This document shows, one piece after another, positions 9,456 to 33,041 of a stretch of DNA of 64,000 nt; position 1 is the stretch's first letter, and the number at the start of each line of letters is the position of its first letter. The stretch spans positions 309,477,468 through 309,541,467 of the forward strand of contig NC_057861.1 of NCBI RefSeq assembly GCF_019393635.1, written 5' to 3'. A program made the translations under genes and the position numbers. A model generated the notes under the pieces. The model worked only from the letters and a program-made list of their open reading frames with translations. It ran no database searches and was not told where the DNA came from. This DNA comes from Dromiciops gliroides (taxonomy: Eukaryota; Chordata; Mammalia; Microbiotheria; Microbiotheriidae).

Positions 9456-9461
9456 TTTATT
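9456..9461 (-). terminator. Poly(A) signal AATAAA of the bicupin gene
   Basis: AATAAA on the minus strand 184 bases beyond the stop codon, giving a short 3' UTR ending near 9440. Further AATAAA copies lie further on, near 8445, and could give longer transcripts. Confidence 0.45.
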
Positions 9462-9644: not shown

Positions 9645-9779
9645 CTAAGGCAAATTGATGGCTTGATCCTCAGTGAATTTGGGGATCTTCTTAAATTCAC
9701 TCTGCTTCTTGAAGAAAAGTTGGGCCAGGATGTGGTCAGCTGTCGCATGGATATAATCATCCAGGTCCAGGGTTTGTAG
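9645..9779 (-). CDS. Bicupin exon 9 (residues 427-470 and stop)
   Basis: Acceptor TTTTCATTGGCAG before 9779; 44 codons to a TAG at 9647-9645. Encodes LQTLDLDDYIHATADHILAQ and a Lys-rich C-terminus ending QAINLP. LQTLDLDD mirrors LQTLDIDD after cupin 1. Confidence 0.9.
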   Translation of the reverse strand, partial: LQTLDLDDYIHATADHILAQLFFKKQSEFKKIPKFTEDQAINLP

Positions 9780-12700
9780 CTGCCAATGAAAATCAAAGGA
9801 TACCATGTTAGGACTGTCCCAAGTCAAATTTCTAAGATGAACTATAAAATATGTTAGAGCGTGAATACAGAGAACTGGACAATATAGACACACCTGGCTT
9901 TACACAACTGACTTATTTCTGTGAAGAAATGTATAAAGCACCTCTTTCTTTAAATGAACTAGGACCTTATAAAAGCTTAGAGTTGGAAGGGATCTTAGAG
10001 GCCATATAGCAGGAATCTTTTCTATCACATCCCTGACAGATGATTGTTTAACCTCTGCTTAATTCCTTCAGTAATAGTGCGCTCACTACCAAGAATGGCA
10101 GCCTATTCTCTTGTTGAACAGCCCTGTTTGTTAGAAAGTTCCTTCTTATATTTAGCCAAAATCTACCTCCTTAGAACTTCTTCCCATTAGTCCTAATTCT
10201 GCATTAAGGAGGGGCAGCTAGGTGGTGCAGTGGATAAAGCACCAGCCCTGGATTCAGGAAAACCTGAGTTCAAATCTGGCCTCAGACACTTGAGACTTAC
10301 TTAGCTGTGTGACCCTGGGCAAGTCACTCAACCCCCATTGCCTCGCAAAATAAATAAATAAATAAATTCTGCATTGAGGAGTCATACAGAAGATTACTTC
10401 TTTTTCTTATTTGAAAGACTTTGAAACATTTGAAAAGAATGATCATGATTTCACTAAACTTTAGCATTTCCAGGCTTAATATCTTATAAGGTTTTGAACT
10501 GTTAGTTGTATGACATGCTTTTCAGCACTCATCACAGCTCCCTGCACATAAGAGGCATTTAATAAATGTCTGCTGCACTGAAGTGAATTCCTTAGAATCT
10601 TGGTTACCTGGGGGCAGCTAGGTGGTGCAGTGGATAGAGCACCTGCCCTGGATTCAGGAGGACCTGTGTTCAAATCCAGCCTCAGACACTTAACACTTAC
10701 TAGCTGTGTGACTCTGGACAAGTCACTTAACCCCAATTGCCTCACCAAAAAAAAAAAAGAATCTTGGTTACCTTCACCTGCCCACTCTTCAGTTTGTCAA
10801 TGCCCCTCTAAAAATGTGGCACCCATATCTGAACACTCTATTCCAGATTGGACCTGACCATCATAGAGTTCAAGAGGACAGACAGTCCCTGTGATACTGT
10901 GATCGAGGCACTATATTTCTATTAATTCAACCAAAATAATAGACTAGGATTTTTAAGGAGCCGCCATAGAAACCTGTTAACTCTTATTAAAATTTTAATC
11001 AGCTAAAACCTCTACATCTATTGTGTATGTGAGCGTATGTGTGTCTGTGTATCCGGACCTGTGATTTTATCAGTGTAGGCATAGTCTTGGTAAGGAAACT
11101 CTCTACCAATGCAGATTAATAGATGTTCTGTACTTTAGTCTTAAGAGTCTGGAACCCTCAGAGGTTAAGTGATTTGCCTTGGATCAGGCAGCCAGTCAAA
11201 GTCATAGATAGGTTTCCATCTTGCCTGGGAAGCCAGCTCTCTGGACACTCTACACGGTGCTTTTCCCAGATCTTTCTCAAATGAACTGCCGCCAAGCCAG
11301 GTCCCTCCTCAGTCCTGTACTTTTTCATTTTTTAAAAAAATCTAAATGCTAGCCTTTGTCTTTATCCCTTGTTAATGGCATTCTGTTGGGCTCAGAATTT
11401 TATCCTGTTTACTCTCCATCTCTCTCTCTCTCTCACATACACACACACACACACACACACAAATGTTACATATGTATAGGTATATAGATCTTTGTGAATT
11501 AGATTTGCTTAAAGTGAAGAGCCTATGTAGATGGCAGATTAGATTTGGAAATTGATCCGAAATGTGTTCATGGTCTTTCTACCATTCATAAATGCATCGA
11601 TCTTGAGAATCCTTTGAACTGTCTGTTACACTGGGAATGTAATTCTTACCTGGTTTCCAGTGGTGAAGGCAAGAATGAAAAGCAGATCCTCATCACATGT
11701 GCTCTTGATGTAATGCTGGGTTCCAATAGGGAAAAATACCACATCTCCAATACCAATGTTAAAATCAGTAGTACCTTGGGTACTAATAATTCCCACCTAA
11801 GCAAAATAAAATATAGAGATTTAGTGGGAAAACACAAGTATCACCAAGTATGCTATTATAGAACTGGAAGTGTTAGTTCATTAACATCTGGTGACAAAGC
11901 AGAAGATCACCATGTGGACGTATACCTGCTTGATACACCCACCCCTTTTATTTTCTTTCCCCCAGGGCAATGAGGGTTAAGTGACTTGCCCAGGGTCACA
12001 CAGCTAGTAAATGTCTCGTATCTGAGGCTGGATTTGAACTCAGGTCCTCCTGAATCCAGGGCCAGTGCTTTATTCACTGTACCACCTAGCTTCCCCTATA
12101 CCCACCCCTTTTAAAAGACTGCCAATCCTTCCTAATTTACATGATCTCAGCCCAATGGAGTCTTACTGCTACAAAGGAGATCATGCATGAATTTTAGTCT
12201 GGCTTTCATAGAATCATAGGTTTTAGAACTAGAAGGGACTTCAGGGATTATCTAATCCAATTCCACTATTTTATTTAATTCAATTCAATAAACCTTTGTT
12301 AAATGCCTACTATGTGCCAGATATTTTACTAAGCACTGGGGATACAAAAAGAGACAAAGGACAGTCCCTGCCCTCAAGGAATTTACAATCTAATAGCAGA
12401 GATGACATGCAAATAAATATATACAAAGCAAGCTATTTACAGGATAAATAGAACATAATCAAAAGAGGGAAAGCAATGGAATTCAAGGGTTGGGGAAGGC
12501 TTCTTATAGAAGGTGGGATTTTAATTGACACTTAAAGGAAGCCAGGGAGGTCAGTAGTTGGAGCCAAGGAGGAAGAAGATTCCACTTATGGTGGATGGCC
12601 AGAGATAAGGCCTGGAGCCAAGAAATGGAGTGCCTTGTTTATGGAACAGCCAGGAGACCAATGTCACTGGATCAAAGAGTTTGTGTTCAAGAGTAAGGTG

Positions 12701-15700
12701 TAAGAAGACTGGAAAGGTTGGGGAAAGGGGGTCAGATTGGGAAAGGCTTCGAATGCCAGACACTGAAGTAGGCAGACCCACCATCAGGCTATTGCAATAA
12801 TCCAAGTATGATGAGGTCCTCCACCAGAGTGGTACTACTGTCTACTTTATACAAGAAAGTTGATGTTACCCTGAAGCTAAAGTGATTTGCCTGAGCTAAC
12901 ACAGATGATAAGTAGCTAGAACTTTTACCTAGGTCCTCCAACATAAAAGTAAGCTTTTTTTTGTCCTACTACAGTTTCTTTTGGCCTTTTTTTGGCATTA
13001 GAGAAGAAAAACAAGAAATGTGTTTGCACAATAGTTTTAAGAAATCACCTTTCCACATCCACTGATGACATATCCCATTTCATTAGCGTTAAAATGAAAA
13101 TGAGGCTGTCTTAAGCCATTGGTGTAAATTCGGAGAGTTCCCAGAGTAAGGGAATTTTCATGCTGAAAGCAGAAAGAAATAGAGATGTTTAGTAAATTTG
13201 TTCTATTACAACATAAAAGTCTTTTCAGAGTCAGAGGCAAGGGCATGTTAGGAGAGTGCTGGTTCTTTCTGATTAATGTAGATACCCAAGTCAGATCATC
13301 AGGATCCCCAAATCCACATTGAGCCCTAAATTCCATGTCCACATTGCTCTAATTAACCTGTTATTTGACAAACCTCCTGACTATTGATCTATAGACACAG
13401 CTTCATAATTTTTATTTTTTAAAAAGAAATTTGGATCCTACTCTAATATGTTTTAAATTCCAGTGCCTATTCAAATAACATTCCCCAAATTACCTGATTC
13501 AAGGATTCACTGAAAATTTTCTCATTGTCACTTAGTCCATTTCCATTTTTTCGATACCGAGCCCATTGGATTATTCCTCCTGGAAAGCGAAATTCTTTTG
13601 AACCTGAATAAGAGGAAGTTTGAAAATCACAAGACAAACCAAAGGACTTCTAGCCAGCAATATAAAAGATTGGAGCAACCACAGGACACAATAAGATGTC
13701 AGCTTTCCAAGCAGATCAAATGACCACTGGATGGAATGATTTGAGAGATGTCACAATATTCTACTGGCCTCAAAAAGGTTGGTCTCCTATAACATTTGTT
13801 ATCTAGCCTAAAACTGCCATCAGTGGTTGGCTGGGATTTAGCCCTCTCCCATTAATACCAATTAAAATTTTTTTGTGTGACTGCACAAACCCTTACGATC
13901 TCCAGTGTGGTAAGGAAAACATAGAGTAGACTTTCTTCTATTAAAAAATAGGAGTTGGGGGCAGCTAGGTGGCACAGTGGATAAAGCACCGCCCTGGATT
14001 CAGGAGGACCTGAGTTCAAATCCGAGCCCAGACTATTGATACTAGCTGTGTGACCCTGGGCAAGTCACTTAACCCTCTTTGCCCTGCAAAAAACAAAAAC
14101 AACAAAAAAATACTTGATATACTTTTACTGGGGAGCTAGGTGGCACAGTGGCTAAAGCACTGGACCTGGATTCAGGAGGACCCGAGTTCAAATCTGGCCT
14201 CAGACACTTGACACTTACTAGCTGTGTGACCCTGGGCAAGTCACTTAACCCCAATTGCCTCACCAAAAAAAAAAAAAAATAGGAGTTGGGATTTAATGTG
14301 TTGAATCTGAGAGAACAGAAGAGAATAACAAGGAGGAAGAGAGGAAGGAGGCAAGAGGAGAAAGGCAGAGATGAGGTTTGAGATTTGTAGTAGCAGGGAA
14401 GTGATTCATGAAAGTGGCAGAGAGTAGTGTAGTAATAATAATAAAAATAACAATAGCAAGCATTTATATAGCATTTTAAGGCTTACAAAGCACTTTACAA
14501 ATATTTTTTTCATTTTTTAGCACTCCAATGGTACATTGCTGAAAACTAATTATATGTTACAAATCCATATCCTAAGGAACAGCCCTCCTCCTTTTTTTTT
14601 TGGTGAGGCAATTAGGGTTAAGTGACTTGCCCAGGGTCATGCAGCTAGTGTCAAGTGTCTGAGGCCAGATTTGAACTCAGGTCCTCCTGAATCCAAGACC
14701 AGTGCTCTATCCACTGCACCATCTAGCTGCCCCTACAGCCCTCCTCTTTTTAAATGTTCCCTTATCCCAAAGCTACCCTGTATCACCTTATCAGAGTCTA
14801 TTAACTCAGTCTTTGTCTGTGCATGCAAAATATTCTGGAGAATGCAAGGCGGGGAAAAAAAGAAATCAAGTTATTGAGGGAAAAAAAAAGCAATTTAACT
14901 GAAATTAATCACAGAGGCTCTCTATTTGGAATATACAAAGCCATAAAACTAAAATCACAATTGTATACAACTGTGAGTCACTAACATCCCATTTTCCCCA
15001 TTTTGCCTGCACACAAAAAAGGTATTTCATATCTTTTTAAGTCCAAAGAGATCCTACGAGATCTTCATGGTGTGAATCTTTTCAACGACATGAGTTTCAT
15101 AAAATCCTCATTTGGTTCCATATTTATTGAACATATGAACTACATTACTGAATCCTAGATAAAGTAGGTTTGACATCAAGAAAAATATCATGTTGGTTCA
15201 TCCTGTACCTTTAAGATCATAAAAGTATCGCCACACCAGGCTGTCTGGAGACTGCATGTAGCTGGCGTTCATAACCAGCTCAGCCAAATTGGGAGGGAGA
15301 TTGATAGCCTGATTTTCTTCTTGTTTCTTGAATGTTCTAATGAAATTAACTCCGCCTTGAGGCTAAAATGTACAAATAGCAGCCCCATTAGTTTTTTTAT
15401 TGTACCTCTTTAAGACATCAAAGACACAAACAGCCCCATCTAAAGTCAAAATACAATTAAAAGTTTGGGAAGTATCTCACAAGCATTAAAAGGCCTAGTC
15501 TAATTTTATACCAGCTGGAAGAAATACCGAGAGCATCAGTCATCTATGGCCCTTCTCTTGACCATGTTTCTAGTAGCCCTTCTACTTCTTCCTCATTTCA
15601 TCAGTCCATTGGTGCTCTAAAATGTCAGTTTTGAAACTACCTCAAAGCCCTTATTTGCACACTATCCAAATCTTGCCCCTTTCCTGGACCAGTATCTGTC

Positions 15701-17282
15701 TCAGTAATTCTCCACAGGGGATCTTAAGACTTTGGGGATATCAAAAGTCACTGCTCAACAGGAAAAGAGTAGGTATGTTTGCATTAGACTAAATGCATGT
15801 AAACATTTGTGACAAATACACTATTACTACACACAGTAAGTGCTTGATAAATGTTTGGTTTAAGTGAATTTTGCATTTCTCCCCAACACAGATAGTATTC
15901 CATGGAAATTCCCAAGAAAGGTAATAAAAGCATTTCTAGCATTGGGCAAGACATACAGTAGGGGCTCAGGAAATACCATCCCAAAGTGGAATGGTCTGCC
16001 TTGAAAGGAAGTAGACACTTATCACTTCATACCACCTGACATTTCTAAGTGGATGCTGGAGGCTAACTTGGGAGGGGAATTGTAAAAAGCATTTCTGTTC
16101 AGGTAGGACTTGTGCTGGAAACCCTTCGATCCCTTCTACTCTGAGATCATGCATTTCTATGCCTGATGGGTAATATAGTGAATTCCAGAAATGTGCATTT
16201 CATTAAATGTCCTTAGACTCATTCAGGGCCAAGTTTCTTCTAGCCCCTGAAGACCCTGGGCTGGCTTTCATGATCTGTCTAAGTTAACCCAAAGCTTCAC
16301 GGTGGCGTACACTTCAAGACATAGTGCAAACCTTGAGGGACCTGGACGCAATATCCTCTGGTGTAGAGAAAAACACATCATCAATATCCAGGGTCTGAAG
16401 CTCATCATGAGTGGTGAAGAAGAGCAAGAAAAGGCAGTCCTCGGTTCCCACATTCTTTATCCAGTGCAAGATATTTTTAGGGAAGAAGATCACCTGACCA
16501 GCAGTCACGTTGTATGTGGTAACCACACCGCCTCCAGCATCAACTACACCAATCCAGGCGGTGCCCTGCAGTACAAAGGTGAAAACACCATTTGCGTGGA
16601 TACAGGTTGGTAACTAAGTTTTCCAAATGGTGAATTGCCTGGATGCTTACTAATAATAGTGGTAATCATAATAATAACAACTTAGGTTGTCATGGTACTT
16701 TCTACTTTTATAACTATGTTTGTGTGTATTGCCAGTCTTTCATTAGTTCTCACAACACCTCAACGATAGGCTGAGTAAGTAGTAGTGGTAAAATTAGTAC
16801 AAGTAGGAATAGCTGTAGTGGTAATGGTAATGGTAGTAATAGTAGTAGTAGTACTATTTTTTTTTTTTAAGTGAGGCAATGGGGGTTAAGTGACTTGCCC
16901 AGGGTCACACAGCTAGTAAGTGTTAAGTGTCTGAGGCCGGATTTGAACTCAGGTACTCCTGACTCCAGGGGCGGTGCTTTATCCACTGCGCCACCTAGCT
17001 GCCCCAGTAGTAGTACTATTTTATAGATAAGAAAATTGAAAAACAGAGAAGTCCAAGATCACAGTATTGCATTCATTCAAATGAAATGTCATAACCAGCT
17101 GAAAAGCTGACCAGGAAGAAATTGATGTTTGCTCTCTTATATTTAATAAACCCATGAAGCACCGGAGAAAAAAGAGCCTGGGTGAAACTCAACCACGGTA
17201 TGATCAAAAGCAAGTTTCAGCAAAAGTTCAAGTGAGACTTGAAAGGGGTCTCAGATACCTAGGAGATGTATATATACATATT

Positions 17283-17349
<67 letters not shown>

Positions 17350-20300
17350 GTATATGTGTGTATGTATATATGTACACATACACATATGTGTATATACAAA
17401 CCCATGTATAGTATATGTGATGTATAATATGTGTACATTAATCTAAAGCACTGCGTATGTATGTGTGTGTGTATGTATGTGTGTGTGTGTAGATAGATGG
17501 ATGGATGGATGGATGGATGGAGGATGAAGTGCTGGCACTAGGAAGTAGATAGATGGCTTAGGGGATAGAGTACTGGGCCTGGAGTCAGGAAGACCTGAGT
17601 TCAAGTTTAACCTCTTTTTGCCTTAATCTACTGGAGAAGGGTATGGTAAACTGCTGTGGTATCTTTGCCAAAAAAACCCCATGGACAGTATTGGTGTGAT
17701 ATGACCCACAAAAGGAGTCTGCCACAACTAAAAGACAATGAAGCACTCACTCTGCCGCTTCGTGTTTTCCCAATCCTTGTACTTAATAAATGTTTGGTGA
17801 ATTGAATAGAATTCAGAGCCCTCACACATCTCATCACTGGCTAACTTCCCTGGGTCTCTGTACTGCTTGCCTCAGTCAGACAAGATGTGCCACACTTTGA
17901 TGGGCAAGGGAACACAAGCATTGACAGACATCCCCAGGGGTCTTCCTGAACTGAAGGAAACCTATACAGAGGAAGGCAACCCCGCAACTACAATGGCTCT
18001 GTCTGGTCAGTAAGTCTGAGATCCTTATCAGCTCTCACTTGAACTTTTGCTGAAACTTGCCTTTAATTACCTTGTGATGAATTTTCACACCCCACTGGAG
18101 CAGGATGCTCAGGTTTCATTGCCTTTCCTCAGTATTATCAGTATCCTTCTTTCCTGGGGCTTCACAAGGAACCTAAGTTCAAATCTGGTCTCAGATACTT
18201 ACTAGCTGTCTGACCCTGGGCCAGTCACTTAACCTTATTTGCCTCAGTTTCTTCATATGTAAAATAAGCTGGAGGAGAAAACTGCAAACCATTCTAGTAG
18301 CTTTGCTAAGACTCCAAATAGGGTCATGAAGAGTTGGACATGACTGAAAAATGACTCAACAACAACAAAAATATTATCATAAAAAGCAATGAACTAGGAT
18401 TCAAGAAACCGAGATTCTAGTCCCAGGTCTTCCAAGATTTTAATGAAGCCCTGGATCAGGAGCCAGGACCTAGGTTCAAATCCTTTCTTTCCATTTAATG
18501 ATGATGTGACCATGGACTTTCCAAAAGTCATTTGACCTCCCTAGGTCTCAGTTTTATCATCTATAATATGAAGGAGTTGAACTAGATGGTCTCAAAGGTC
18601 TCTTTATCTCCAAATCTATGATTCTTTGAATTGCCTTTTTGTATCTCCATTTCCTTATTTGTAGAATGAAGGTGTTAGAGTAGATGTTCTCTGAAGCAGC
18701 TTTCACTCTTTCTTCCCTATTTATTTTATTTATTTTTGCGGGGCAATGAGGGTTAAGTGACTTGCCCAGGGTCACACAGCTAATATCAAGTGTTTGAAGC
18801 TGGATTTGAACTCAGGTCCTCCTGAATCCAGGGTCATTGCTTTATCCACTGCGCCATCTAGCTGCCCCCGGCTTTCACTCTTAAGATTCTGATTGAAGTT
18901 AAATCATTAGAAAATGACACCAAACACAGCTATGATCATTCATTGTTTCACATCACCTAGAGGTTGGCTTCATGTCCCTTAATCAAACCATCTAGACCTA
19001 GTCACGTGCGTCTATTCTCTTTTATATGTGCCTCCCTATGTTCAGTCTGGATTAGAAGATAATCTTCAGGGCCTGACTCACAAAAGATGATCAATTTGGA
19101 ATCCCATAGCCTTGATCCTAGGGCCTCTGAATCACCTTGGAAAACTGATTCTTTCAGTTCCTGCTCTTCCTAGAGAGAAAGGACAATTTATTTGGCTGTG
19201 GATCAGAATGGGCATTCATTGCTATTGCCAGAATTGTTGAACTCTACATAATTCTTTCTTATGTTCTAGAAAGAGAAAGAACTTATAAAGCACTTTAAGA
19301 CTTGCAAAGTTCTTTATAGATATTAACTTGTTTTGTCCTCCAAACAACTATGAGAGATAGGTGCTATTTTTGTCCCCATTTTCTAGATGGAAACAGAGGT
19401 TAAGTGATTTACCTGTGGTCATATGGATATTAAGTATCTGAATCTAGATTTGAACTCAGATCCTTCTTACCTTACATGTAGTGCTCTATACACTGGGCCC
19501 CATAGATAAAGTGTCGGCCTTAATGATAGAGTTTGGGTTTGACCTCTGCCTCAAAATTATCTTGGCCAAGTCAATTAACTTCTAAGAACATTAGTATCCT
19601 CATCTTTTAGATGGACATAAAACTATTTGTACTATGTACCAAGTGGGGTCTAATAAAAAGGGTAAGAGAAGGGAATACACATTTATATAGAACCTACTAT
19701 GTGTCAGACACTGTATTAAGCTCTATTTAATCTCCTTTAATTAATTAATTGTTTTCATTAGGAATAGTATGTTATAAATGACTTAGCACTATATACAAAA
19801 GTTCCAGTTGATGCTAGAAATAATTTAAGCTGGGGAGTGAAGCTCTTAAAATATGTGACCCAAATCAGAAGTCTGTCCTGCTTTTTCAGGCTACAGGCAT
19901 CTCAACAATGAAAACAGATACACAATATAAATGCTTAACTTCAGAAGGAAAGAAACCCAGACCTACCTGTGCAAGGTAGCCATGTTCATTGGCATTGAAG
20001 TGCCAGTGTGGGGCACGGAGGCCATTACTTTTTATTCTCAAGGTTCCAAAAGTCATGTGTGACTGCTGCCTGTTCAAGCTAGTACCAAAGGCTTCTTCTT
20101 CAACACTGAGGTAGTCTTTGAGATTATTCCGGTATCGTGCCCATTGGATAGCACCGCCTGGGAACTCAAATACCTAAAAAAAACCACACACACAGAAAAA
20201 GGGAATACCATCCATAGGGATTGCATCACCTTTGAGAGTTAGAACCACTGTGGACCAATTTGTTTGGAAGGGGGAGTAAAAGAAGATAGAGGGGTCAAGG

Positions 20301-23300
20301 TACTATGCTAAGTGCTAAGGATAGCCTGACACTCTAATGGGTCCGTGAGCTCATTGATAAGGGTACTCCCTCCCATGATGCAGCTTACTACCCAACCCTG
20401 CCTGCCAAGCTCATGCAATTTTCCTTCATGTCCTCCCACAAATCCACCACAGGAGAGCCACTCCACATGCCCAGGACCTTCTCTCAGTTCTTGTGACATT
20501 ACAAAGATACCAGTGGAAAAACAACACAGCTTTTGCCCTCAAGAAAATTATCATCTGATTCCAGTTGTCATTCAGTCATGGAAATATTAGTATTCCTCTT
20601 TTGCGTCTCCATTTCCTTATTTGTAGAATGAAGAGGTTGGGGTAGATGTTTTCTAAAGTGTCTTTCAGTCTTGAAATTCTGATCAGGGGCAGCTAGGTGG
20701 CGCAGTGGATAGAGCACCGGCCCTGGAGTCAGGAGTACCTGAGTTCAAATTCGGCCTCAGACACTTAACACTTACTAGCTGTGTGACCCTGGGCAAGTCA
20801 CTTAACCCCAATTGCCTCACTAAAAAAAAAAAAAAAAAAAATTCTGATCAAAGGTAACTAATTAGAAAGTGACACAACACGGTTTCAATAATCAATTGTT
20901 TCACATCACCTGGAGGTGGGCTGCATATCCCTTAATCAAACCATCCAGACCTGGTCAAATCTATTCTCTTCTATATGTGCCTCCCTATGTTGTCATTCAG
21001 TCATGTCTGACTCTTCGGGCCAGGCCCTCTACTCTCTCCTAAAGTCTGTCCAGGCTCATGTTTGTTACTTTCCATGATGCTATCTATCCATCTCATCCTC
21101 CGCCATCCCCTTTTCCTTTTGCTTTCAATAGCCCAGGATGGAGGTAATGAAAACTGACTTCAGGTAATGGGCTGTGTGATTAGAGAGAGCAGATGTGAGG
21201 GCTGGCCATGGAAAGATTATGTTAACTTGAAAGGAGAAGATTTTTGGGAATTAAGTAGGGAAAATCAGTAGAGACAGAGCCAGAGTGTTTCTCAAGTTCA
21301 CTTGTGTTCTCAGAAAGAGGGAGACTGAGGCTTAGCAAGCATTGTTGGGGCTCACCAGCTACAGTTCTGCTGTAGGCATCTTCTCCACCACAAATGGTCT
21401 TATAAAACCCCAGAGATGAAGTCTAGCCCTGTCAGCTGCTGCTATATCCTGTAGACCCCATCCCAATACTTCTTACTTTTGCTAGCTTTCCCTGACATAT
21501 CTAGAAGCCAGCATGGTCCCTTTGATCCGTCCCTTAGATTTAACTGCCTATGCTAATTGCTAAAGAGATAAAGACTGTTTTCTTGCACTCAGTTTTGATC
21601 TGCCCTTAAACCACAGTCCCAGACACTCCCACCCCAGTTATCTTCCTGGTGTTAGTCCTGGCAGAAAACAAAGCAGAACATGGCTGGCACCGGAGTTGGG
21701 GTAAATATCCCCCTCTGGCCAGTCAGCTTGCAATGTTCAGGAGATAACACCAACAACAATATAACCTTTAAGTCTGCACAAACTGTACAAATGTCTCATT
21801 TTATCCTTATAACAGCCCTGTGAAGAAGGTGCTATTATAATCTCCATTTTATAGATGAAGAAACTGAGGAACAAAGAGGCTATGATTGATTGGCTGGGAT
21901 TTGCCTAGGGTCACACAGCGAGTAAGAATCTTAAGGCTGGATTTAACGCAGTTCTTCCTCACTCCTGGGCCAATCGCTCTATCTACCGTGCCACCTAATC
22001 CAGGCAATATGCTGACCCGCCTTACCCTTCTGTTCAGGTAGGGCCCCAGCTGTTACCTCCTTGCACCCAGAAAGAGATTCATTTATTGAAATGTTTAATA
22101 AGAAGTTGACAGTTTTATAAGGAGTGTTGCTTCAAAACATGTCATTCCTACCTTGGAGCTATGCAAACGATTAAGAAATTGAAATTTAAAGTCAACACGT
22201 TTTTCACCCTTTGGGTCAGAGGGAGTCTCTGGTGCTTTTGGAAGGTGAGTATCTGCATGTGGCCGGAAGTTGGCGACATAAACCAAGGAGAGTATCAGCA
22301 CACCTATCAATGTGGTGATAACACAGGCCAGGAGACAAACCAGGAAGATGTTCATTAAAGACCACTGGCTCTTCTTTTCCTATGAGAAATTATAAAACCA
22401 TTATTTTTTACTTATAAGGAAACTGGAAAATCTTTCTTTTTAAATGAAGCTTTCTTTTATCCTTTACCCAGAAGAGCTTTCATCTTATTTCTATTCTTCC
22501 CAACAGATACAGGTGAATAGATAGATAGATAAAAGGATGCAAAGATGAATAAATGAATAAATGCATGAATAAACAAATGGGTAAATAAATGAATGAATAA
22601 TTAATTAGTTAAATAGAAAAGCAAAAACTAGATAACTAGATAGATAAATGAATGGATAAACAAATACATGACTAAGATAAAAATGACAACTATTTGTATC
22701 CTCTGGGACTATTGAAAAATGTTAATGCTCCATTAACCCAATGTATGACTATAGAAATATCCTTTAATCTTCCTTTGCCTTAGTTCCCATAGCTGTGAAA
22801 TGAAGGCATTAGATTACATGATAACCAAGGCCTCTTCCAATTCTAAAATTACATGTATGTCTATATGCAAGTATGTGTGTGTATACATGAATTGAAAGAA
22901 CTCTTTCCCAAGCTGGGGCACTGAAAAGAAACCACAAATTTCACAATTTTGCTAAGGGCTGATCCTATTTAGATAGCTTGTTTACTAGTTTATCTCCATG
23001 GTAATAACCAATATAGAGAGTGATTATTTTAAGGCCTTTCCCAGGAAGGAAACTGGCCAACCATGAAATAAAACAAAATAGCCTGACTTCCTGGTGACTT
23101 CTTCCACTTTCCTCCATAGTATGGAATCCATATTCTCTCTGCTAAGAGATAAAAAGGTCGTTTGGCATGATTAAGGGTGATAATGGCTTAACATTTTTGA
23201 GAACAGAGAAGGAAATAATCTGAGGTGCAATTTTTCCTGAAAGCAGGATGAACCTTAGGTGACTTTCCTGAATAGCTCTCCAACCCAATGGTCCTTGACA

Positions 23301-26300
23301 TTAATTAATTAATGCATTTCCATACATGTGTCTTATATAGCATCTAGGTAATGGAATTCTTTTCATTCATGAAGAAGAAAATCTATCTATAATACAGCAT
23401 CTTAGGGAGTTTCAAGAGGCACAAAGAGGTTGATTGAACAGCTAATATGTGTTGGGGTGGCATTTAAACCTATAGCTTCCTTACTCCAAGTCTATATGCT
23501 CCGGTGCTTCTATGGGTTTCTATGTCAGCTTGTATATGCCTCATACGATATGAGGAAGAGCCAAGTCTTTGGACTCCTAATCCAATATTCTCTCTCACTT
23601 TGCCACCTGCCACTTACTCTAACATCTTTTAGATATTATTATAACTTATGCTAAGAAAATCAAATCTAAGTGGTCTCAACTGTAACTGTTAGCAAATTTA
23701 CATTTAGGTGTATAAAAGGTCAGTTATATAGATTTACACATAATAATATATTCACAGATAATATTTTTTTAAAATTTCAAATAATATTGCTACAACCACT
23801 TCCTCTCTCTGCCCTGCCCTGAAACTAATATTTCTTCCAATTAAGGAAGGTCAACACACACACACATGTCATGGGAGGATTATGGGCCCCGGTCACTCCA
23901 ACAATTCTCTGGGGGGTTCAAGGAACTTTTTCCTTGAAACCTCAGGGGTTTTCCCTTGAAATCAAGTAGGCCTCTCCTTGAACACAATCAAGGACACACA
24001 CTCACCTAACAGAGATAAGGGGCACAGATGGAACTGAGCATGCTCCAGGACCATCACCCTACATTCCAGTCATCCTAAGCATCTGGATGAGGTAATCCAG
24101 GAGAAGACCACCCATCAGCAGACTGCTTAGACCCATCAGGACAAAGTTGACACCCACCACCAGATCTTTCACGAGGGATTCTTCCTACCCCAGTGCAACT
24201 CGGGAAGACCACCAGCCCCTCACGCAATAAGAGACTCTTACCCACCCCCATCTAAACCCTATAAAATGGCACCCCACAAGTTATCCGGGGAGGAAAGCGT
24301 TTTGTTCTGGCAAAACCTTCCTCTCGGCCAGTTTCTCTTGTACCCCAATAAACCTGTTCTCTTATTCCTAATTAGGTCTTGTGCGAGAGTGTAATTCTTT
24401 ACAGAGGAATCCTAAGGACCCACATGCTTTCTCCTATTGGTTTTCCCCCATATCATTTGGCACCCAACGTGGGGCACGAGATGATATGGTGGGAAATGGG
24501 GTATGGGTTGTGTTAGGGATTGGGGTTCTTGGGAATTCCTCTTTAAAGAATTACACCCGGGGCAGCTAGATGGCGCAGTGGATAGAGCACCGGCCCTGGA
24601 GTCAGGAGTACCTGAGTTCAAATCCGGCCTCAGACACTTAACACTTATTAGCTGTGTGACCCTGGGCAAGTCACTTAACCCCAATTGCCTCGCTAAAAAA
24701 AAAAAAAGAATTACACCCTCTTGCACACAAAACTTAGTTAGAATAAGGTGGTAGTTTATTTAGGAGCAAGGGAAGGGAAGGGTGGGGGGAGGGAAACCAT
24801 GAAAGAAATCCATCTCCCCAAGTCTCCCCATGAAAAGTCCAAGGAAGAAAAAGAAGGAGCGAGGACAGACTAGATAGAGAGACAAGATTAAGGAGAGAAC
24901 GGCTCACTAGGGTAGGAAGGAGACTGGAAGGATATGGACTAAAAAAAGGAGGGGGACGGACTAGAGAAGGACGGACTAGGAGAGAAGCTGACTAGAGGGG
25001 AGCCCGGACAAGGACGGAGGAGAGTTCAGTTCGGAAAAGGAGAGCTGGGTCTGACAAGGTTACAGGCCTTAATACAAACCAGAGAAAGTGTAACGTGCCC
25101 TGAGGCCGGAGGTGGCTAAGGCCCTTATTGTATTCAAGAAGTTCGAAGCTCAGCAGGTGCGAAAGAGAGATGAAAGAGACGCAAGAGATGCAGTGGAAAG
25201 AGACCACAGGAAAGCAGTCAGGTTGTACACTTTATTTCCCTGTATTCCTAATTTTAAATAGTATCTCATAAATAAACTCTGCTTTGATTATTTGGTTAAG
25301 AGGCTTTTTAATCTTTAGTCTATCAGTTGGGGAGCAGTGGGGTGGAACTTTATAAACGGCCCACATTAAATTAACGAAGTCAGATAGCCAAATAGTCAAC
25401 AGTCCCCTGATTAGTCCTCCAGTCAGCTTCAGCCCCCAAAATTAGGCTAGTCAATTCAAAAATATTTTCACATTTGAATGGCAACCACGAAGGGACTTAC
25501 GGTCCAATTATAATTTTTCTAAATTTATCATTTTTTGTATAATCATAATTTTTCATAAATCCAATTATATATAATTTTCCAGGATAGTTATGAATAATTA
25601 ATTTTTTGTACATTACCCTGTCTGAGTCAATTCCCTTTAGTCTCAATTTACTCCTCAATAAAATGGGGATTATAATTTCTTTAGTACAATTTATATACAA
25701 TGTACAATTGTAAATTTACTAAATTTACAATTTAGTACAATTGTTTACAATAATTTCTTCTTATGAGGTTTTTGAGAGGTTAAAAGGAGAAAAATGGATT
25801 GGTGGGTGGGGTGGGGTACAGGTAGGTGGTGCAGTTAGTTGATAGAGCACTGGACTTGGAGTCAGGAGGACCTGAGTTCAAATCTGGCCTGAGACACCTG
25901 ACACTAGCTGTATGATCCTGGGCAAGCCATTTAACCCTATTTGCCCAACTCTCACCTATAAAATGACGGGGGAAAGGAAATGGCAAACTACTAAGAAAAC
26001 CCCAAATGGCACACATGACTGGAAAAATGAAACAACAACATCAGCCTCATTTTGTACCTGATCATGTTATATATCATCTAATTTCAACCCCATTCTATGC
26101 CAGAATCAGAAAATCTGGGCTTTACTCAAGAGACTTCGCCTTTCTAGACTCCTATTTCCTCATTAGTTAAATGAGGAGATTAAACTAAATGTGATCTCTA
26201 AAGTCTCCAACTTCCCTAACATTCAATAAGTCCATATTGGAAGGAAAAAAATAATAAAAACTATAATAAGTAACTTACCAGCCAAGAAGAGTTGTTCACC

Positions 26301-26362
26301 TTTCCCCTGGATGGGCTAGGGGGGAAAGCATTTTCATGCATTTCAAACGCTGAATTTTCCAT
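9645..26362 (-). CDS. Membrane-anchored bicupin (germin/oxalate-decarboxylase-like), nine coding exons, 470 aa
   Basis: Join of exons 26362-26279, 22379-22152, 20173-19967, 16565-16332, 15362-15209, 13603-13494, 13162-13049, 11796-11650 and 9779-9645: 1413 bases, ATG to TAG, no internal stop. Layout: cytosolic N-terminus 1-37; membrane segment about 39-63 preceded by EKK; acidic/proline linker 67-90; cupin 1 about 105-245; cupin 2 about 304-440. Cupin 1 has PHWHFNANEHGY (His160, His162, Glu167) and His207; cupin 2 has PHFHFNANEMGY (His360, His362, Glu367) and His405, so both metal sites look whole. The two barrels share FPGG-IQWARYR and LQTLD-DD, an internal duplication. Known: bicupins of this fold include Mn-dependent oxalate decarboxylase and germin/spherulin-like proteins. 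Inference: type II membrane protein with an extracytoplasmic double cupin. Substrate unknown; no oxalate-decarboxylase SENST-type lid is evident. No frameshift seen, so the gene looks functional. Confidence 0.9.
10211..10366 (+). mobile_element. WSINE1-like CORE-SINE in intron 8
   Basis: Sense copy with (AAAT)n tail; AATTCTGCATT(A/G)AGGAG on both sides. Confidence 0.88.
10609..10758 (+). mobile_element. WSINE1-like CORE-SINE in intron 8
   Basis: Sense copy; GAATCTTGGTTACC on both sides. Confidence 0.88.
11416..11460. repeat. (CT)n then (CA)n microsatellite in intron 8
   Basis: CT units followed by ACACAC units. Confidence 0.9.
11650..11796 (-). CDS. Bicupin exon 8 (residues 378-426, cupin 2 motif 2)
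   Basis: Acceptor TTTGCTTAG before 11796, donor GTAAGA after 11650; 49 codons, phase 0. Encodes VGIISTQG, then GDVVFFPIGTQHYIK, the motif 2 with the fourth ligand His405, and a strand FILAFTTGNQ. Confidence 0.9.
11964..12097 (-). mobile_element. WSINE1-like CORE-SINE in intron 7
   Basis: Antisense copy; ACCCACCCCTTTTA on both sides. Confidence 0.85.
12240..12835 (-). mobile_element. L2 LINE 3' region in intron 7
   Basis: The minus strand runs from CTATTGCAATAGCC to the L2 end block (TTGAGGGCAGGGACTGTCC, then a TATTAAATG-like tail). Confidence 0.65.
13049..13162 (-). CDS. Bicupin exon 7 (residues 340-377, cupin 2 motif 1)
   Basis: Acceptor CTGCTTTCAG before 13162, donor GTGATT after 13049; 38 codons, phase 0. 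Encodes LGTLRIYTNGLRQPHFHFNA then NEMGYVISGCGK: the second H-x-H and Glu of a cupin metal site. Confidence 0.92.
13494..13603 (-). CDS. Bicupin exon 6 (residues 303-339, cupin 2 start)
   Basis: Acceptor CTTATTCAG before 13603, donor GTAATT after 13494. The first two bases complete the Gly codon split with exon 5, then 36 codons follow. FPGGIIQWARYRKN repeats the start of cupin 1 almost word for word. Confidence 0.9.
13958..14110 (+). mobile_element. WSINE1-like CORE-SINE, 5' member of a dimer (intron 5)
   Basis: Sense copy. Its left flank ATAGGAGTTGGG (13950-13961) is repeated only after the second copy, at 14280-14290. Confidence 0.85.
14130..14279 (+). mobile_element. WSINE1-like CORE-SINE, 3' member of a dimer (intron 5)
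   Basis: Sense copy with A tail, joined to the first by a short linker TACTTGATATACTTTTACTG. Confidence 0.85.
14602..14733 (-). mobile_element. WSINE1-like CORE-SINE in intron 5
   Basis: Antisense copy; ACAGCCCTCCTC on both sides. Confidence 0.85.
15209..15362 (-). CDS. Bicupin exon 5 (residues 252-302 plus one base, inter-barrel linker)
   Basis: Acceptor CATTTTAG before 15362, donor GTACAG after 15209; 51 codons plus one base. Contains QAINLPPNLAELVMNAS (possible N-glycan at Asn283) and VWRYFYDLK leading into cupin 2. The motif QAINLP recurs at the protein's C-terminus. Confidence 0.87.
16020..16165 (+). mobile_element. CR1/L3 3' fragment
   Basis: TTTCTGTTCAGGTAGGACTT, TGATCCCTTCTACTCTGAGAT-like end block; intron 4. 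Confidence 0.4.
16332..16565 (-). CDS. Bicupin exon 4 (residues 174-251, cupin 1 back half)
   Basis: Acceptor TACTGCAG before 16565; donor GTTTGC after 16332, a weak but legal GT donor. 78 codons, phase 0. Encodes GTAWIGVV, an N-V-T sequon at Asn192, germin motif 2 (GQVIFFPKNILHWIKN with His207) and the post-barrel helix region beginning LQTLDIDDVFF. Confidence 0.9.
16776..16860. repeat. (TAG/TGG)n trinucleotide tract in intron 3
   Basis: Imperfect TAG and TGG units, the landing site of a SINE. Confidence 0.8.
16871..17005 (-). mobile_element. WSINE1-like CORE-SINE in intron 3
   Basis: Antisense copy; AGTAGTAGTACTATTTT on both sides, inserted in a (TAG)n tract. Confidence 0.87.
17268..17522. 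repeat. (TG)n/(TA)n and (GGAT)n compound microsatellite in intron 3
   Basis: Alternating TG and TA tracts, then six GGAT units at 17497-17522. Confidence 0.92.
17548..17750 (+). mobile_element. Mar1-like CORE-SINE (long form), intron 3
   Basis: GGGATAGAGTACTGGGCCTG head, then the long tail with CTTTGCCAAAAAAACCCC and a GACAATGAAG end. Confidence 0.65.
18170..18375 (+). mobile_element. Mar1-like CORE-SINE (long form), intron 3
   Basis: TTCAAATCTGGTCTCAGATA core and GAGTTGGACATGACTGAAAA tail ending in CAACAACAA. Confidence 0.7.
18440..18635 (+). mobile_element. MIR/CORE-SINE, intron 3
   Basis: AGGTTCAAATCC, TTTCATCTATAA-like and GAACTAGATGGTCTCAAAGG tail. Confidence 0.55.
18738..18869 (-). 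mobile_element. WSINE1-like CORE-SINE in intron 3
   Basis: Antisense copy; GCTTTCACTCTT on both sides. Confidence 0.85.
19268..19505 (-). mobile_element. MIR-like CORE-SINE (long), intron 3
   Basis: TATAAAGCACTTTAAGACTT, CCCATTTTCTAGATGG, GAGGTTAAGTGATTTACC and TGAACTCAGATCCTTC in the antisense order of the family. Confidence 0.6.
19967..20173 (-). CDS. Bicupin exon 3 (residues 105-173, cupin 1 front half)
   Basis: Acceptor TTTTTTTAG before 20173, donor GTAGGT after 19967; 69 codons, phase 0. Encodes FPGGAIQWARYR and the germin motif 1 around PHWHFNANEHGYLAQ with His160, His162 and Glu167. The exon ends one residue before the closing Gly of motif 1. Confidence 0.92.
20686..20840 (+). mobile_element. 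WSINE1-like CORE-SINE in intron 2
   Basis: Sense copy; AAATTCTGATCA on both sides. Confidence 0.88.
20845..21750. other. Unassigned part of intron 2
   Basis: 20845-20990 parallels 18885-19045 (shared AATCAAACCATC(T/C)AGACCT block), so one older sequence was duplicated on either side of exon 3. The rest is not recognised. Confidence 0.4.
21755..22010 (-). mobile_element. MIR-like CORE-SINE (long), intron 2
   Basis: CCATTTTATAGATGAAGAAA, GGGTCACACAGCGAGTAAG, ATCTACCGTGCCACCTAA. Confidence 0.65.
22152..22379 (-). CDS. Bicupin exon 2 (residues 29-104, membrane anchor and linker)
   Basis: Acceptor CATAG just before 22379 and donor GTAGGA after 22152; 76 codons, phase 0 on both sides. It holds the hydrophobic stretch NIFLVCLLACVITTLIGVLI followed by LSLVYVANF, with Lys-Lys on the N-terminal side, which suggests a signal anchor with the N-terminus in the cytosol. 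A hydrophilic linker rich in Pro and Thr follows, then KRVDFKFQFLNR leading into cupin 1. Confidence 0.88.
22510..22680. repeat. (ATGA/ATAA)n tetranucleotide tract in intron 1
   Basis: Degenerate GATA, ATGAATAA and TAAATGA units. Confidence 0.8.
22690..23860. other. Unassigned part of intron 1
   Basis: Apart from a weak MIR-like piece at 22730-22840 nothing is recognised. Confidence 0.4.
23877..24455 (+). mobile_element. LTR, family B, followed by a tRNA-Lys-type primer site
   Basis: Starts near GATTATGGGCCCC, contains CTATAAAATGG (TATA) and CCAATAAACC (poly(A)), and ends at CATATCA. It lies in intron 1 of the bicupin gene. Family B relatives are at 55619-56107 and 57128-57696. Confidence 0.7.
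24458..24475 (+). other. Retroviral primer-binding site, tRNA-Lys type
   Basis: TGGCACCCAACGTGGGGC, close to the known tRNA-Lys complement, two bases after the LTR end. This confirms the LTR's orientation and boundary. Confidence 0.75.
24478..24800 (-). mobile_element. Partial family B LTR in inverted orientation, holding a SINE
   Basis: The minus strand reads CCTAAATAAACTACC, then TTTTGTGTGCAAGAGGGTGT, matching the R-U5 part of family B LTRs. It faces the plus-strand LTR across the primer site. A WSINE1-like SINE splits it. Fossil remnant. Confidence 0.6.
24559..24707 (+). mobile_element. WSINE1-like CORE-SINE in intron 1
   Basis: Sense copy inside an inverted LTR piece; AAAGAATTACACCC on both sides. 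Confidence 0.88.
24800..25472 (+). mobile_element. LTR, family C, with tRNA-Arg-type primer site downstream
   Basis: Matches the reverse complement of 57720-58400 over the block TAAATAGTATCTCATAAATA (poly(A) signal) and the flanking purine-rich leader. The sequence TGGCAACCACGAAGGGAC at 25479-25496 fits a tRNA-Arg primer site. Left edge uncertain. Confidence 0.55.
25818..26040 (+). mobile_element. Mar1-like CORE-SINE (long form), intron 1
   Basis: GATAGAGCACTGGACTTGGA, GAGTTCAAATCTGGCC, GGAAATGGCAAACTACT, AAACAACAACA tail; 240 bases before exon 1. Confidence 0.75.
26279..26362 (-). CDS. Bicupin exon 1 (residues 1-28, start codon)
   Basis: ATG at 26362 opens 28 codons, MENSAFEMHENAFPPSPSRG and on to NNSSWL, then donor GTAAGT at 26278-26273; phase 0. 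This is the predicted cytosolic tail. The start is chosen because it is the first ATG after the TATA box and the reading frame joins exon 2 without a stop. Confidence 0.82.
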
Positions 26363-26471: not shown

Positions 26472-26480
26472 CCTTATATA
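26472..26480 (-). promoter_or_regulatory. TATA box of the bicupin gene
   Basis: On the minus strand the sequence reads TATATAAGG, 110 bases upstream of the ATG. A start site about 30 bases downstream (near 26445) would give a 5' leader of roughly 85 bases without an earlier ATG. The position fits a focused TATA promoter. Confidence 0.6.
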
Positions 26481-30047: not shown

Positions 30048-33041
30048 GTCCCCCCTGTTGTTCCTCAAGAAACAAAATGTTTCCTTGACGGAACAGTAAA
30101 AACAATATGATAACTATTGCTAACTAATAATATGTGAACAACAATATAGAAAAGGAAGAGAGGAAAGTTTTGTCCAGAGGGGCGATTTTTTTTTGTCCTC
30201 ATGAACCGACGCTTTGACATTAGTCTTGCAAAGGGAGGGCCTCTGCAGAGAATACATGTTACAGATGGTGTATATTATAACAGAAAGAGAAAAAAAAACA
30301 ACAAAAACAACAAATCAAAACTGTTCATTTAAAGTCTCTGAAAGTCTTTTCTCAGATGTCCTCTAGGTGTAGTCGTGGAATGGAAGTCTTTTCAGGGGTT
30401 GATGTGTGGATGCTGGTAATCAGCCAGGAAAATTTCCTACAAAATTGAGCTTAACACAACTTTAAAATAGCTTTGTCAATAATCAAATCAAACAATGAAA
30501 GTTCTCAAAAACATGTCTAAGGGAATACAGAATCTTAGTTGTTACACATGAAACATATAATAAAACAAAAATTGAACCATTTTTTAAAATTATAATATTA
30601 CTATAGTCCCCCCCTTATGGAGGGTAATTGAGAAGACAATTGCTGCGATATTAATATTTAAAAATAATTTTTATCTTTGTTTCATCACTTTTTGCATCAT
30701 CTGCCTAATTATCCTCATGCCATTATGAGAAATTAAAAAATCTAATATAATTGGTAACAGGTGTCAAGGCCAAATTCAACACTGTATTTATCATGACACC
30801 TGAGATAATTATGGGGGTTACCATAAAAGAACAGAGAAATGATGGGATATGAGCATTCCCACACTTGAGCAATATGTACTGTCCATGCAGTATGCCAGGC
30901 TTAAAATAGGTGGATGGAATACATGTCCATGCCACCAAACATATTGGAGGAAACTGAGTCAGACTTAATCAGATGCATGGGATTGAAATGGTCCATGGCA
31001 TCAGGCATATAGGAGGGAGCATAGAAGCCAGGTGTAGAAGTGAGATGGGTGGGATGAATACTTCCAGCCATCTGTACAATATTGTGGGGAAAAAGAGAAT
31101 AAAATATTAAACCAAGAGAATCCAACCTCAACATTTGTCAAAAGCCGTTCCCTTGGCCATACCTTGACTTCATGCATGTCTCCCCTCATGTGACAGTTCA
31201 GTGTCTGCTCTTGCATGTATTCCTCTTGTGATTGGATGGCATCTTGGCCAACTGGCATCTGATAACTCAGAATAAAGGCAATTAATGTCTTAAATGATAA
31301 GTTCCCATAATCCAAGTCTCATATGGATTTAAAAATTGAGGATAATAAATGATTGCAAAAAATGTGAATACATCTTGACTCAGAACACAATATATAATTA
31401 TGCAACAATTTCAAATAATACCCCTTTTTACTTAGTATACAATTACTTTTGTGAAAAATCTGAACATATTTAAATACAAGTTAAAGCACAACAGAATCTC
31501 AAAGAACTTTTTTTTTTGAAAATAGAAAACTTTTACAAATGTTCCCCTCTTTTTTTTTTTTTTTTGGAATATGCTTATCAAAAATAATACTTCTAGAATC
31601 AATTTATACTTGCCATGGCAACCAATTTGCCAGGGAAATGCTTTAAAGAGTTTGATCAAATAATCAGTTGAGAAAAAATAACAAAAACAAACAACTCAGA
31701 ATATGGGAGCACAATACTCCTAGAATTAACATTGTATTATGAAATCAAAACCATGTTTCAAAATTAGATAGATGAATGAATAGAAGAAAATACACGTGGA
31801 ATAATAAGACAATGAAATTCAAACTAAGGAAATCTAAATGAATATGAACTTAATATCAATAAGAGTATTATAAAATATAAACTTGATCACATGACTATAA
31901 AAAGCTTTTACAAATATTCTCCTTGTTTTAAAAACTAAGTATAAGACACAATCTCAAAAGCATGAAAATCTCTATGAAAATAAACCCATACCATTAATTT
32001 CAAAATGTATATATAATAGCACAGAAATCCTATGTAACCTCTGAACTGATACTATTACTCTGAGTGAATTCAGAACACTTTTGATTCCGATATCTAAAAT
32101 CCCCAATACTCATATCAATACCTTGCTGCTTACTTCTACATTTCTGTAAAATATATACCCTTCCATGGCAAAAGAAGCAGAGTCTTGAACTATGTTGATG
32201 GTTGTCATTCTTATTCAGCTTAAGTTTTTCTTCTTTAAGCCTTCTATATTGTCTGTCAGTCTTTTCACCATACAAATGCTTTATAAGATTATTAATTAAA
32301 GACAAAAGCAGGTTAGCAAAATTAAGAACAAAACGAGCATATCTGGAATTTAAAGAGTTTTCTAAGATTGTCTCAAAAGCACAGCCAGGCCGGGGAAGGG
32401 CTGAGCCTGAAGCTGCAAATGCAGGTAGAAAAAGTTGAGCATGCGCATCAGATCTCTGGACTTCCCAGGCAGGGGAAGCTATGGGCTTGGCCATAGGAGG
32501 AGTAGAGGGTGGGGTCTGGAGAGGAGGGGAGGGACCAGAGCAATTTGAATCAGATTTGATTTTGAACTCAGGCCTGGATTCCTCTTCCCCCACTTTGCCT
32601 CCAGGTGCTAGGGGATTAAAAGCTTCTAGAGGGTGGGTCATTGCCTCCAGGCATGCAAAATTAGAGCAACAATTAGTGTTAGAACTGGGAAAAGCTGCAG
32701 GAATCTCTTCAGGTTTCTCTGAAAAAGCATGGTTGGGAGAGGGGGAGATATTTCTTTGTGGGAGTACATTGCTGGCTCTTCTAACACAAATAAAAAGAAA
32801 AATAGAAAATCCACAAAAACAAAGCATTAACATGATCTTATCTCCCATTTGTCTGGTTAAACAGACTAAAATCAAAAATAGGGTAATTAGGGAGTTTAAA
32901 AGGTCCATTTGAAAAAATTTAAAGGAAAACACAGCCAGTACGCCAGTACTTAGCAGTTAAAGGGAGAGGGAGGGGAAATTTCTTACCCAACCAGCAGATC
33001 AGAAGACTGAGGGTTAGCTTTCCTCTTCGTGGTCAGCCATC

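Follow-up and report, generated by a model that had tools for sequence, protein, structure and literature searches.

Bicupins, in which two cupin domains are joined in one protein, are best known from microbes and plants. Germin, the plant oxalate oxidase, has a single cupin domain, whereas the protein described here has two. For the oxalate decarboxylase OxdC, the available part of PMC11433825 gives H95, H97, E101 and H140 as the N-terminal site, with R92 and W132 in the second shell, and an excerpt of PMC3585803 proposes the lid residue Glu162 or Glu333 as proton donor and states that the enzyme becomes more oxidase-like when the lid glutamate or the lid is replaced. The same excerpt puts CsOxOx, the bicupin oxalate oxidase of Ceriporiopsis, closest by homology to the OxDC family; its lid reads DASN, without the SENS glutamate, and we liken it to the marsupial protein, likewise a bicupin, by description alone. 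The other protein of importance here is human DYNAP (C18orf26), a type II protein whose exon 3 holds both its helix and a Ser/Thr-rich tail (PMC8329785). We analysed a 64,000-nucleotide stretch of the genome of the marsupial Dromiciops gliroides (the window; NC_057861.1, positions 309,477,468 to 309,541,467 of the forward strand), in which the original prediction, made from the letters of the DNA, had placed a gene for a membrane-tethered bicupin.

Re-deriving this gene from splice sites and frame returned nine exons on the minus strand, from 26362 to 9645 of the window, identical in coordinates and residue count to those first proposed. All eight introns are GT..AG (phase 0 in seven, phase 1 in one), and the joined frame of 1413 bases makes 470 codons plus TAG with no internal stop. 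The gene thus exists as originally drawn, and the claim of a complete, apparently functional gene for such a protein in a marsupial is supported. By their SINE type, the repeats of the genome also look marsupial. A search of its own 3.3-Gb genome with the whole protein gave 13 matches up to E 10, namely the nine exons, three anchor-only exons of paralogues and one weak cupin relic. Cupin_1 has two matches in the genome, both within the bicupin gene, which sits in a 764-Mb contig among conserved mammalian neighbours. As a whole, the locus is best explained, and in our view likely explained, as an intact member of a gene cluster sharing the CLLAC anchor, encoding a bicupin anchored as a putative type II protein that arose by its own duplication and is probably an enzyme acting with metal on a small carboxylate.

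The two germin- or oxalate-decarboxylase-like cupins of the original prediction are present: a Pfam search matched Cupin_1 (PF00190) over two stretches, far beyond chance (3.1e-37, 127.9 bits). The best match in the PDB was OxdC (3.9e-20), followed by Sll1358, glycinins and oxalate oxidase. With OxdC (TIGR03404) the protein has in common two Cupin_1 domains, the His/His/Glu/His ligands and the Arg three residues before the first His. All eight metal ligands are intact (H160, H162, E167 and H207; H360, H362, E367 and H405), and R157 and R357, each three residues ahead of the first His of motif 1, keep both active-site arginines. These residues suggest that each cupin probably binds Mn and a small carboxylate.

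The surroundings of the sites differ from those of OxdC. By simple pattern search, the SE motif of the lid and the Trp motif are absent from both halves, and no Trp stands at the place of W132 in either (I199 and V397, located by the motif GxxxFFP). In the alignment, the marsupial lid is two residues shorter than that of OxdC and lacks the glutamate, Leu221 being aligned with OxdC Glu333. By the same simple patterns, the Trp motif occurs in 70 and the lid motif in 65 of 82 prokaryote N halves. The absence of lid glutamate and Trp argues against decarboxylase chemistry. In half 1 an acid pair, D227 and E228, occurs close to where the lid would be and could take over from the missing glutamate; half 2 has none.

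The membrane anchor of the original prediction also exists as a helix, with its strongest 19-residue hydropathy window starting at residue 39, but its identity had been missed. Residues 33-62 match the full model of the CLLAC domain (PF15675) of DYNAP-type proteins (1.1e-13, 50.9 bits against a cut-off of 25). The anchor exon therefore has a placental relative. Across the genome, five of the 30 CLLAC matches listed exceed the cut-off, and all five lie on the minus strand at C1 309.20-309.50 Mb, in a cluster of 0.3 Mb. An AG acceptor in phase 0 precedes each of the five CLLAC exons, and in the bicupin and three DYNAP-like genes this acceptor stands five codons ahead of a conserved Trp. The bicupin has 24/28, 23/28 and 23/28 anchor residues in common with these three genes, which themselves have in common a short exon 1 (MEGKYRK...) behind a TATA box (TATAAAAGG boxes) and a second exon. 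Together these features make the bicupin a member of the CLLAC (DYNAP) cluster of surface proteins.

Two of the DYNAP-like exons, with open frames of 1949 and 2168 residues, apparently encode giant membrane mucins that arose by expansion of the DYNAP tail, and the divergent exon of 121 residues is possibly an older member of the cluster. The third DYNAP-like gene, in a model with an anchor exon of 161 residues, is identical at 55 of 117 residues, over three exons, to what we take to be the human DYNAP sequence. With DYNAP the bicupin has in common the CLLAC anchor exon, at the same intron position and phase as in the marsupial DYNAP-like genes, and the locus itself, the interval between C18orf54 and RAB27B. 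DYNAP differs in the Ser/Thr-rich tail within its anchor exon, in an extra cytoplasmic exon and in having no cupin. We considered whether DYNAP is the orthologue of the bicupin minus its cupins and rejected this; separate DYNAP-like genes are present in the marsupial, so bicupin and DYNAP are paralogues. In an open-access literature search, none of the papers listed described a bicupin from a vertebrate or treated DYNAP as belonging to a family of mucins, which does not prove that no such paper exists.

Relatives of the cupin pair were sought among prokaryotes, plasmids and viruses. Scanning prokaryote genomes with alignment A1 gave at least 576 relatives, of which the best 80 were kept (24-30% identity); plasmid records gave 72 matches, with 24-28% identity among the 15 matches listed. 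Phage records held no match and two viral-contig scans no relative. Behind the Paraburkholderia bicupin gene at L031 (53-1694) lies a gene for an Nramp divalent metal transporter, an arrangement that fits a metal-dependent protein.

The marsupial protein and 82 prokaryote proteins were each divided into halves, taken around motif 1. The bicupin tree proposed alongside the original prediction was built in its prokaryote part, from 31 proteins (64 halves) and then from 33 (68 halves) of the 82 usable; L097, with no second motif, was dropped. The 64-half tree separates an OxdC set of 22 N and 22 C halves from a Nitrososphaeria/Chlamydiota set with its own 8 and 8. Both trees unite the marsupial N and C halves at 100/99, outside the OxdC N and C halves. 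The first tree joins this pair to the long branch of L090 at 93/56, a branch flagged by the program; in the second, unrooted and without L090, the pair goes with the archaeal/chlamydial set at 96/88. For the marsupial N half, approximately unbiased (AU) tests reject a place among either the N halves (p 1.2e-4) or the C halves (p 8e-8) of OxdC; for the marsupial C half they reject one among the C halves of OxdC (p 3.1e-4). For the archaeal/chlamydial set the test covered the marsupial N half, whose grouping with the N halves of that set is likewise rejected (p 3.6e-5).

That set comprises eight bicupins (L034, L035, L037, L038, L041, L056, L077 and L094), 25-29% identical to the marsupial protein, with N and C clades and a duplication of their own. 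Their N halves lack the Trp and SE lid motifs in eight of eight cases, as does the marsupial protein, and REPHWHPNA.E stands in both of the two sequences inspected. The marsupial halves are 48-49% alike. Eight of the 82 prokaryote bicupins score higher in half-against-half comparison and one scores equally, so likeness of the halves is by itself no proof of a private duplication, and it is the trees and AU tests that carry the claim. Within the prokaryotes sampled, they show the bicupin to descend from an internal duplication of its own, separate from that of the oxalate-decarboxylase bicupins; gene conversion between the halves could mimic their pairing. Intron boundaries differ between the halves (104, 173 and 251 against 302, 339, 377 and 426), and thus there is no look of a recent exon duplication. 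Between the halves the nonsynonymous divergence (dN) is 0.49, and the synonymous divergence (dS) returned no value, which we take as saturation, indicating that the protein was conserved while silent sites were scrambled.

The neighbours of the gene are those of DYNAP. Upstream on the same strand lies C18orf54 (Pfam LAS2, 2e-5, 25.3 bits, just below the cut-off of 27), whose start is 70.5% identical over 78 residues to what we take to be the human start. Beyond it, on the plus strand, is the start of STARD6 (PDB 2mou, 1.9e-14). Downstream of the cluster, five exon matches to RAB27B lie on the minus strand at C1 308853844-308873351, and its first 52 residues are 100% identical to what we take to be the human protein. 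The human order, in the available part of PMC4868023, is STARD6, C18orf54, DYNAP, RAB27B, CCDC68, TCF4, which together with these flanks places the bicupin in the DYNAP interval.

On the RAB27B side of the cluster is a relic of exon 7 (L119; C1 309150773-309150925, minus strand) of 38 codons, 14 of them identical, with no stop. Acceptor and donor stand in matching places, and the ligand Glu and the Arg have both become Gln. Its genome-wide score is weak (E 0.38); with exon 7 alone as query the score there is 35.8 bits, while 100 shuffles of a 10-kb piece never exceed 23.1. None of the other eight bicupin exons scored above the shuffles in the 10-kb piece around it. The relic suggests the remains of a second bicupin copy and points to long residence at the locus.

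Coordinates of the gene and of the other CLLAC exons are collected in Table 1. Intron 1 contains a repeat of about 547 bases (window 24926-25472), a copy of which, 93.8% identical, lies at C1 309291975-309292519. At 32030-32956 of the window, the minus strand has an open frame of 308 residues, and a long one runs opposite to it. An Rfam search of the window gave no match.

Table 1. Features of the bicupin gene (window coordinates) and of the other CLLAC exons in the cluster (C1 coordinates).
Feature	Coordinates	Strand	Basis or remark
TATA box TATATAAGG	26472..26480	-	118 bases ahead of ATG; read in the sequence
Exon 1: start codon and 28 residues of cytoplasmic tail (predicted)	26279..26362	-	splice sites and frame; matched in genome search
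Exon 2: CLLAC transmembrane anchor (residues 33-62) and stalk	22152..22379	-	Pfam PF15675, 1.1e-13; phase-0 acceptor
Exon 3: cupin 1 motif 1 (R157, H160, H162, E167)	19967..20173	-	splice sites and frame; Pfam; ligand check
Exon 4: cupin 1 motif 2 (H207)	16332..16565	-	splice sites and frame; Cupin_1 match; ligand check
Exon 5: linker joining the cupins	15209..15362	-	splice sites and frame
Exon 6: start of cupin 2	13494..13603	-	splice sites and frame
Exon 7: cupin 2 motif 1 (R357, H360, H362, E367)	13049..13162	-	splice sites and frame; Cupin_1 match; ligand check
Exon 8: cupin 2 motif 2 (H405)	11650..11796	-	splice sites and frame; ligand check
Exon 9: final 44 residues and TAG stop	9645..9779	-	splice sites and frame
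Possible polyadenylation signal AATAAA, past the stop	9456..9461	-	read in the sequence
CLLAC open exon, 161 residues	C1 309286494-309286012	-	Ser+Thr 48%
CLLAC open exon, 1949 residues	C1 309264546-309258700	-	Ser+Thr 67%
CLLAC open exon, 2168 residues	C1 309235276-309228773	-	Ser+Thr 60%
Divergent CLLAC exon, 121 residues, short tail	C1 309204080-309203718	-	Ser+Thr 28%

On the reading we favour, a short cytoplasmic tail and the CLLAC helix would hold both cupins outside the cell. This type II topology, which in the CLLAC family goes with the plasma membrane and Golgi, is inferred from human DYNAP and, weakly, from flanking charge. The 20 residues ahead of the helix include 4 basic and 1 acidic, and the 20 behind it 2 of each kind, in weak agreement with such an orientation. 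Two N-glycosylation sequons fall in the predicted ectodomain, at residues 192 and 283. Each cupin would bind Mn and a small carboxylate, and metal-dependent enzyme activity of some kind seems reasonably probable from the conserved residues. A more specific proposal, our best guess though a doubtful one, is that the protein would act much like an oxidase on oxalate or an acid resembling it, instead of decarboxylating it, and yield CO2 and H2O2 at an epithelial surface. In normal human tissues DYNAP is reportedly expressed in oesophagus and spleen only (PMC8329785), and the available part of PMC13056625 reports that it co-varies with MUC21 in TCGA data, along with SPRR3, CRNN, KRT13 and KRT4; by analogy, upper-gut epithelium would be the first candidate site of expression.

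Several points weigh against this account. The nearest prokaryote sequences found are only 24-30% identical, so that transfer of a substrate by homology is weak, and an excerpt of PMC3765361 describes seed-storage bicupins as mostly metal-free and inactive, so the fold can lose activity. The groups for the AU tests were named only after the first tree had been seen. Repeats aside, DNA-level likeness to the DYNAP-like genes is confined to exon 2 of the bicupin, and its exon 1 is not clearly alike to theirs. Furthermore, the Ser/Thr-rich tail of DYNAP was not found; the donor of exon 2 follows residue 104, and the cupins come next.

The cupins may no longer be enzymes and may serve in a mucin layer as a surface scaffold that binds metal, removes superoxide or binds carbohydrate. 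The mucin-like neighbours, the seed-storage precedent and the missing lid and Trp residues favour such a scaffold, whereas eight of eight metal ligands and both arginines, all intact, would be unexpected after the loss of metal chemistry, and we consider it unlikely.

The history of the cluster can be read in two ways. In the one that we advance tentatively, the C18orf54-RAB27B interval would once have held tandem membrane-tethered metallo-bicupins, and DYNAP and the giant mucins would have formed from duplicated promoter-and-anchor exons reading into new Ser/Thr-rich tails; marsupials would have kept one enzyme, and placentals only the stripped anchor protein. Alternatively, in the marsupial line a cupin gene that stood by itself may have acquired the anchor exon of an older DYNAP gene, in which case a placental bicupin never existed. 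DYNAP is present both in placentals and in this marsupial, and, repeats aside, no part but exon 2 resembles the DYNAP-like genes at the DNA level, as such a capture would have it. Of 28 anchor residues, moreover, 4-5 separate the bicupin from the marsupial DYNAP-like genes and 6 separate the 161-residue gene from what we take to be human DYNAP, so the split between bicupin and DYNAP is not shown to be older than that between marsupials and placentals. The diverged exon 7 relic, with its suggestion of long residence, speaks against capture. So does the silent divergence of the anchors: over 28 codons, the bicupin anchor against the DYNAP-like ones gives dN 0.14-0.16 with no value for dS, taken as saturated, whereas the three DYNAP-like anchors give dN 0.03-0.04 and dS 0.32-0.42 among themselves. 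Capture is thus improbable in our estimate, if still worth weighing.

The original prediction had also set the protein in the known line of oxalate-decarboxylase bicupins, which was not supported. An ordinary TIGR03404 bicupin, inherited or transferred and with the same catalysis, would account for OxdC as best PDB match, for the TIGR03404 (NCBIfam oxalate bicupin) hit at 4.2e-33 and for the kept ligands and arginines. However, the TIGR03404 score of 114.9 bits lies below the curated cut-off of 254.2, the halves group elsewhere, with AU rejection of the OxdC grouping for both N and C halves, and the lid and Trp motifs that most of the prokaryote N halves carry are missing; such an identity is very improbable. 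Compared with OxdC, the marsupial protein adds an independent internal duplication, a membrane anchor and eight introns, and lacks the lid glutamate and Trp132, at 24-30% identity to the prokaryote relatives found. Least credible is a recent pseudogene or unexpressed relic, for which the relic exon of a second copy nearby might speak, since all nine exons are open, all eight introns are GT..AG, a TATA box is present, no stop interrupts 470 codons and the codon pattern is one of long conservation. Recent bacterial transfer or contamination was considered separately and is ruled out by the eight introns, the 764-Mb contig with its conserved mammalian neighbours, the 24-30% identity of the prokaryote matches listed and the lack of a phage or viral relative in the records scanned.

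A mammalian surface protein of paired cupins with intact metal sites would be unexpected; we know of no mammalian cell-surface protein built from a cupin pair that retains them. Should its ectodomain prove to degrade oxalate or to produce hydrogen peroxide, the host genome would encode a kind of surface enzyme known to us only from microbes and plants. The finding also ties DYNAP, a little-known placental protein that can transform mouse fibroblasts, to a cluster of genes with one common anchor and very different ectodomains, so that the origin and normal role of DYNAP become testable by comparing species at a single locus.

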